Part shown: positions 1,201-1,971 of the stretch, one piece after another | Numbering within the stretch: the first letter of the stretch is position 1 | Layout: the number at the start of each line of letters is the position of its first letter | Program-made: the position numbers and the translations under genes | Notes under the pieces: model-generated | Told to the model about the DNA's origin: nothing | Seen by the model: only the letters and a program-made list of their open reading frames with translations | Database searches by the model: none | NCBI RefSeq assembly: GCF_002787055.1 | Contig: NZ_CP024808.1 | Coordinates: 1 to 64,000 of the forward strand | Direction of reading: 5' to 3' | Length of the DNA stretch: 64,000 nucleotides | Source: Candidatus Nitrosotenuis aquarius | GTDB lineage: Archaea; Thermoproteota; Nitrososphaeria; Nitrososphaerales; Nitrosopumilaceae

Positions 1201-1971
1201 ATGATTACAATCAAGCTCTTAGGTGGCGCAAAAAAATCATTTGGCAAAGACCTAATGCAGGCAGATCTTGACAATACCTCCATTTCAAAATTATTGGAAT
1301 ATCTCTTATCGATAAAGCCGGCAAACACACTGGAGCTAGACACCAAAAACGTCCTAATTGCGGTAAATGGGGCAGACTCATCCGCACTGCAGGGCCACAA
1401 CACTATACTGCACTCGGGAGATGTGGTAAGTATCATACCAGTAATACATGGTGGTGCAAGAACCCAGTTTGTCATACAATCAAAGAATGTCGAGCTGTTC
1501 CATATCAAAAACAAAAAGGGCAAAAACTATGACTATCTGAGTGTGCTGCGAAAAAAGTTTCCAAGCATAACAATAGAGGGTATATCATCGAGACAAATAG
1601 CAAGCATACTGCACGTCAAAAAAATACTGAGCGTATCCATGTATGCAAAAAAGAACAATTTGTTATTGTCAAAAAAATTCGAGACTGACATTTTGCTTAG
1701 GTTTGCGGCAACCACACAAATCTCGGCCGCAATAAAGCTAGTAGGCATTGAAAAAACAGACACATTTACCATAATTGCAGTTGGCTCAAAACTCCAACTT
1801 GACAGGATGCGTTCGCACTTAGAGGAACGTCTAGTGGATGTGATCTATTCCAAGAACATATCACACATCCAAAAACAATCTCACATATCAAAAAAGCATC
1901 TGGGAATAATAGATTCAAAAAACCCGCTTGAAGACCTGCTAGCAGAAAAGGCAGCAGTATTATTCCAGTGA
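1201..1971 (+). CDS. MoaD/ThiS-like ubiquitin-fold domain fused to KEOPS subunit Cgi121
   Basis: Two domains in one chain. Residues 1 to about 86 are a beta-grasp MoaD/ThiS-type domain: MITIKLLGGAKKSFGK at the start, VLIAVNG in the middle and a closing IIPVIHGG, the diglycine end of a sulfur carrier. Residues about 88-256 match Cgi121/TPRKB: LLLSKKFETDILLRFAATTQ followed by ISAAIKLVGI, the conserved core. Cgi121 is the KEOPS subunit that binds the tRNA 3' end during t6A synthesis. The convergent neighbour is a THUMP protein, so the context is tRNA modification. Whether the Gly-Gly is ever freed or conjugated cannot be told from sequence. Confidence 0.82.
   Translation: MITIKLLGGAKKSFGKDLMQADLDNTSISKLLEYLLSIKPANTLELDTKNVLIAVNGADSSALQGHNTILHSGDVVSIIPVIHGGARTQFVIQSKNVELFHIKNKKGKNYDYLSVLRKKFPSITIEGISSRQIASILHVKKILSVSMYAKKNNLLLSKKFETDILLRFAATTQISAAIKLVGIEKTDTFTIIAVGSKLQLDRMRSHLEERLVDVIYSKNISHIQKQSHISKKHLGIIDSKNPLEDLLAEKAAVLFQ

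Follow-up and report, generated by a model that had tools for sequence, protein, structure and literature searches.

The gene at positions 1201-1971 (+ strand) of the window, the 64,000-nucleotide stretch analysed here, encodes a Ubl (ThiS/MoaD/Urm1-like beta-grasp) domain fused to the KEOPS subunit Cgi121, with a Gly-Gly motif at the junction of the two halves. Comparative sequence evidence makes it fairly probable that the fusion product is a Ubl precursor, from which a JAMM peptidase would release the Ubl at Gly-Gly, leaving a normal Cgi121 as the second product.

Two folded halves and the Gly-Gly junction

The open reading frame, from an ATG start to a TGA stop, encodes 256 aa and is conserved over its full length in the window's family; a comparable frame was looked for on the antisense strand of 1201-1971 and none is present there. 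The Ubl domain (residues 1-85, positions 1201-1455, +) is recognized by Pfam ThiS (PF02597) with 36.1 bits (gathering threshold 22.5), the match ending at residue 85, and with 39.1 bits when this domain is searched alone. It falls below the curated NCBIfam cut-offs for SAMP1 (16.5 bits for a cut-off of 60), Urm1_like (23.4 for 70) and moaD_arch (30 for 49.5). The Cgi121 domain, whose first strand begins at residue 88 in the secondary structure of the model and which extends to residue 256 (1462-1968, +), scores 25.9 bits with Pfam CGI-121 (PF08617, gathering threshold 25) and 95.5 bits with the NCBIfam KEOPS Cgi121 profile (NF011465, cut-off 40).

An AlphaFold2 model built with 61 homologues as input has a mean pLDDT of 92.8 and predicts with high confidence that the two halves adopt the beta-grasp and Cgi121 folds. 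Foldseek retrieves with the Ubl half Urm1 (2k9x, 2.5e-05), the SAMP-type structures 2l52 and 4hro, and MoaD; with the Cgi121 half it retrieves 4ww7_B (1.7e-08), 7kjt_H, 8up5_C and 3enh_C, all with probability 1.00, 8up5 and 7kjt being structures of KEOPS and Cgi121-tRNA complexes. Both profiles being above their curated thresholds and the structural comparisons in agreement, the assignment of a MoaD/ThiS-like domain joined to Cgi121, proposed in an earlier note from the sequence alone, is confirmed, and the possibility raised there that the N-terminal domain might not be a beta-grasp is answered by the predicted model, which folds as one.

The Cgi121 core pointed out in that note, ILLRFAATTQISAAIKLVGI, corresponds to residues 164-183. 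In MjCgi121, Lys56, Met60, Gln71, Ile72 and Gly80 contact the tRNA CCA end (PMC7718258). Profile alignment to Cgi121 chains places Q173-I174 (1717-1722, +), both invariant, at Gln71-Ile72 and G182 at Gly80; the position of Lys56 is occupied by K158 and that of Met60 by T162. Since the residues equivalent to Gln71, Ile72 and Gly80 are kept, the Cgi121 half should serve t6A synthesis as usual.

The Ubl domain ends with V81-I82-H83-G84-G85, encoded at 1441-1455, of which the di-glycine tail H83-G84-G85 occupies 1447-1455 (+). The VIHGG tail was correctly read in the earlier note, but the domain was ended there at residue 86, whereas it stops at 85 and residue 86 (1456-1458, +) is Ala; the resemblance to a sulfur-carrier or SAMP tail is borne out. 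HGG closes the Ubl domain in every one of the 100 fused family members with a continuous frame. Junction statistics were drawn from 101 fused sequences, these 100 and one from outside the family: GG is kept in 100 of them and H83 in all 101, and the residue following GG is Ser in 52 and Ala in 35, thus one or the other in 87. All four Gly codons occur at G84 and also at G85, and this free synonymous change indicates that selection acts on the protein. Immediately downstream, residues 86-95 are the most variable of the protein, with a mean entropy of 2.33 bits versus 1.34 for the Ubl and 1.56 for Cgi121, and the weakest ten-residue block of the model, residues 81-90 (pLDDT 68), coincides with the GG linker. 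The invariant HGG beside a variable linker looks like a maintained cut site, and together with the codon drift and the dip in pLDDT it places the predicted cleavage after position 1455. The Ubl half is also closer to its homologues than the Cgi121 half is (mean identity to the window protein of 58% versus 45%), so it is not a decaying passenger.

An operon pair and its likely fusion and fissions

A gene for ribosomal protein S17e (844-1176, +; PF00833, 60.9 bits) lies 24 bp upstream of the fusion gene, and the two probably share an operon. This S17e carries a long acidic tail, a Glu-rich C-terminal extension from about residue 60 on. Further upstream, a TatD-family nuclease gene (18-812, +; PF01026, 179.4 bits) is a conserved neighbour, and downstream a convergent gene for a THUMP-domain protein (1960-2490, − strand; PF02926, 31.6 bits) overlaps the 3′ end of the fusion gene by 12 bp.

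The architecture as such is already known, since Makarova and Koonin described it in 2010 in all Thaumarchaea then available, apparently cotranscribed with S17 in Nitrosopumilus, and already speculated on a connection with t6A and SAMPylation (PMC2948915). The window gene is a member of this group, with the same fusion and the same ribosomal neighbourhood. In the open literature searched, we found no later work on the fusion and likewise no biochemical test since 2010. What the present comparison of nearly 190 related genomes adds is that fused genes are the norm in the family of the window, that the genes are split in 11 other families, that two secondary splits have occurred and that the HGG is under constraint. 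Thus, while the fusion was stated in 2010 for all genomes, it appears here nearly confined to one family and split in most others.

Within this family (f1, 167 genomes, each at least 85% complete), the fusion was matched in 161 genomes, almost all end to end. Being kept in almost every genome, the fused frame is not due to chance, and the two concerns of the earlier note, whether other thaumarchaeal genomes carry the fusion and whether all close relatives might have separate genes, are settled in favour of the fusion. A mis-assembly or a frameshift joining two genes, for which we found no support although split frames do occur in two genomes, is refuted by this conservation: the same continuous frame recurs in nearly all 161 matching genomes, many of them single-contig, and the architecture was published in 2010.

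In 11 families of the order besides this one (f2-f6, f9, f11, f13, f14, f16 and f17), Ubl and Cgi121 are encoded by separate, nearby genes, with a phosphoribosyltransferase gene between them in f9 and f11. The free Ubl terminates exactly at HGG in seven families (f4, f5, f8, f13, f14, f16, f17) and extends one to four residues past it in f2 (CL), f6 (L), f9 (A) and f3 (MVGV). In f8 (G031), the Ubl gene follows S17e and Cgi121 is not the adjoining gene, and in f11 (G034) the Ubl continues into a phosphoribosyltransferase domain.

With this last protein (L032 2796-3635), the same operon position holds a second fusion of the Ubl-HGG-partner type; in another lineage (G032, L037 3733-4588), a Ubl ending in HGGA and a phosphoribosyltransferase are encoded by adjacent genes. 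The same operon also encodes a conserved protein about 280 aa long with the motif DPI[IL]VD...VVLDG.HR (L032 1901-2755, L037 4634-5491, L038 2229-3041, L042 1141-1992), directly upstream of the Ubl wherever a Ubl is present. A Pfam search with the L032 copy gave no match; the protein is reminiscent of serine kinases of the ParB/SerK type, and such an enzyme would fit a sulfur-carrier pathway.

In two members of the window's own genus, the gene is split again just after HGG. In G005 (L016), HGGA-TGA overlaps a TTG start and the free Ubl keeps one extra residue; in G010 (L040), HGGNK-TGA overlaps an ATG and two extra residues are kept. The tree puts both genomes inside the genus (support 99/99), and split genes nested in this way imply that separate chains suffice. 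Taken together, the family-wide fusion, the separate genes elsewhere and the splits within the genus point to a likely history in which Ubl and Cgi121, at first successive genes of an S17e-Ubl-Cgi121 operon, were fused once, at the root of the family, and were separated again once or twice within the genus of the window.

The Ubl-Cgi121 fusion is also found in one lone MAG outside the family, Thaumarchaeota AUK156 (G038, L044 880-1614), where GG is replaced by CS (HCS). The Ubl domain being kept despite this loss, a GG-less fused form can exist. Its use as a control, being fused, with GG lost and neither E1 nor JAMM found, was set aside as anecdotal for a single, 82%-complete MAG, of which no relatives were found in two genome collections.

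Predicted release of the Ubl and the machinery available

The gene would go back to two ancestral operon neighbours that became fused, one for a Urm1/SAMP-like Ubl with Gly-Gly at its end and, after it, one for Cgi121. A JAMM (Prok-JAB) peptidase would cut after G85 and liberate the Ubl with GG at its exposed C-terminus. The released Cgi121, starting from Ala or Ser86, would join Kae1, Bud32 and Pcc1 and, in t6A synthesis, hold the CCA end of the tRNA, and the free Ubl would be adenylated by an E1 and act as sulfur carrier, in tRNA thiolation or for molybdopterin, or as protein modifier. One frame would thus give two proteins in equal numbers, as do ubiquitin-ribosomal protein or Ubl-MoaE precursors. 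We infer in this scheme the cut, which JAMM would make it, and the role or acceptor of the released Ubl.

For adenylation, the GG of a Ubl must be a free C-terminus, as is established for this protein family. In the translated product of the window gene the Gly-Gly is internal and could take this position only by cutting; the cell also possessing peptidases of the GG-freeing type, a precursor is the economical reading. The genome of the window encodes two JAMM proteins, both with the HxHx7SxxD motif (HSHPHSEASPSSTD and HSHPSGSAEPSVTD), and JAMM genes are present in 165 of the 167 family genomes, usually two apiece. This near-universality is not specific evidence, because JAMMs may act on other substrates, and most split-gene genomes carry Prok-JAB genes too. 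The same genome encodes Bud32, the KEOPS partner (TIGR03724, 215.8 bits), and an Ncs6-like thiolase (TIGR00269), the latter present in 150 of the 167 family genomes; we did not retain the thiolase as a pointer to Ubl use, as its presence does not tell whether it works with a Ubl, or with which one.

Only two Ubl-fold matches occur in the genome of the window, and both are fused. The second belongs to the E1 itself, a Ubl-ThiF protein (PF00899, 252.9 bits) encoded behind thrC with an internal AVAGG-S (L176 1840-3174). This Ubl-E1 (MoaD-MoeB) fusion, reported in 61 of 98 Thaumarchaeota (PMC11237513; see also PMC2948915), is a second capped Ubl with internal GG followed by Ser, but its partner is the activating enzyme.

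The thrC and Ubl-E1 genes are adjacent (G000 C1:1526124-1528673, L176 625-3174), and a recurrent gap or contig break falls on this segment in many otherwise near-complete drafts of the family. About 47 of the 167 family genomes lack a strong ThiF match while still keeping HGG. We dismissed these apparently E1-less genomes as proof of a non-E1 role for GG: in 28 of them that were tested, the neighbouring thrC is missing in 21 and breaks off at, or right beside, the end of a contig in seven, the Ubl-E1 gene of G121 and of G141 begins and then runs off the contig, and E1 is present in all 24 single-contig genomes of the family list. Breaks of this segment at contig ends can therefore mimic gene loss.

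The closest known parallels are the JAMM-cut fusions Ubl-MoaE of Haloferax and MoaD-MoaE of Deinococcus. HvJAMM1 cleaves SAMP1-MoaE precisely after GG, the cut in vivo requiring both HvJAMM1 and GG (PMC4443979), and DRJAMM cleaves MoaD-MoaE (PMC8832034). As in the window, an N-terminal beta-grasp ending with GG is capped at its C-terminus and a JAMM is present in the genome; the partner in the window is, however, a KEOPS subunit and not molybdopterin synthase, and its cleavage is predicted only. Compared with the Urm1, SAMP and TtuB carriers and modifiers, the window Ubl shares fold and HGG-type tail, with Urm1 and SAMP-type structures as its best structural matches, and differs by a C-terminus that is not free and by profile scores under the Urm1-like, SAMP1 and MoaD cut-offs. 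The eukaryotic ubiquitin-ribosomal protein precursors UBA52 and RPS27A are also N-terminal Ubl fusions freed by a peptidase, and in the window a ribosomal protein gene, S17e, lies upstream. Their likeness is one of analogy only, the window protein being archaeal with Cgi121 as partner.

Other readings and their consequences

Alternatively, the protein could stay fused. The Ubl would then belong permanently to KEOPS, in a structural or recruiting role such as attracting E1, thiolase or proteasome or altering assembly, and HGG would serve for contacts. Against a precursor, the conserved HGG could indeed act structurally or non-covalently. Retention of the fusion in nearly the whole family, the conservation of the Ubl beyond that of Cgi121, the GG-less fused Ubl of G038 and a spacing between GG and the first strand of Cgi121 that is unchanged in 81 of 101 sequences agree with such a module. 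We nevertheless hold it unlikely, given that two members of the genus and the majority of sister families have separate chains, that free Ubls stop at GG or shortly beyond, and that the junction has the appearance of a cut site. For similar reasons, with GG capped by Cgi121 and a tail like a cleavage site, the idea, taken from the earlier note, that KEOPS gains a functional Ubl module through the fusion is not the best-supported one.

The fusion could also be no more than a translational convenience: two operon genes would have lost the stop codon that separated them, the joint chain would be cleaved or do no harm uncut, and Ubl and t6A would be functionally unconnected. Conserved operon order and the changing partners of the Ubl, which stands behind S17e away from Cgi121 in G031 and is joined to a phosphoribosyltransferase in G034, would fit this. 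It appears rather improbable, as long retention across a whole family argues for a benefit, if only equal dosage, and archaeal Ubl genes are repeatedly linked with translation and tRNA-modification genes (PMC2948915).

The precursor reading, which we prefer, can be extended, though this is speculative and we would not expect it to hold: every Ubl in the genomes of the family would be made capped, as Ubl-Cgi121 or Ubl-E1, and JAMM cleavage would be the obligatory switch freeing active Ubl and KEOPS subunit equally, so that t6A synthesis would be coupled to sulfur transfer or protein modification. A permanent fusion would mean an additional KEOPS domain in this lineage. A precursor would mean that a strategy like that of ubiquitin precursors operates outside eukaryotes and that a peptidase controls two pathways related to tRNA modification.
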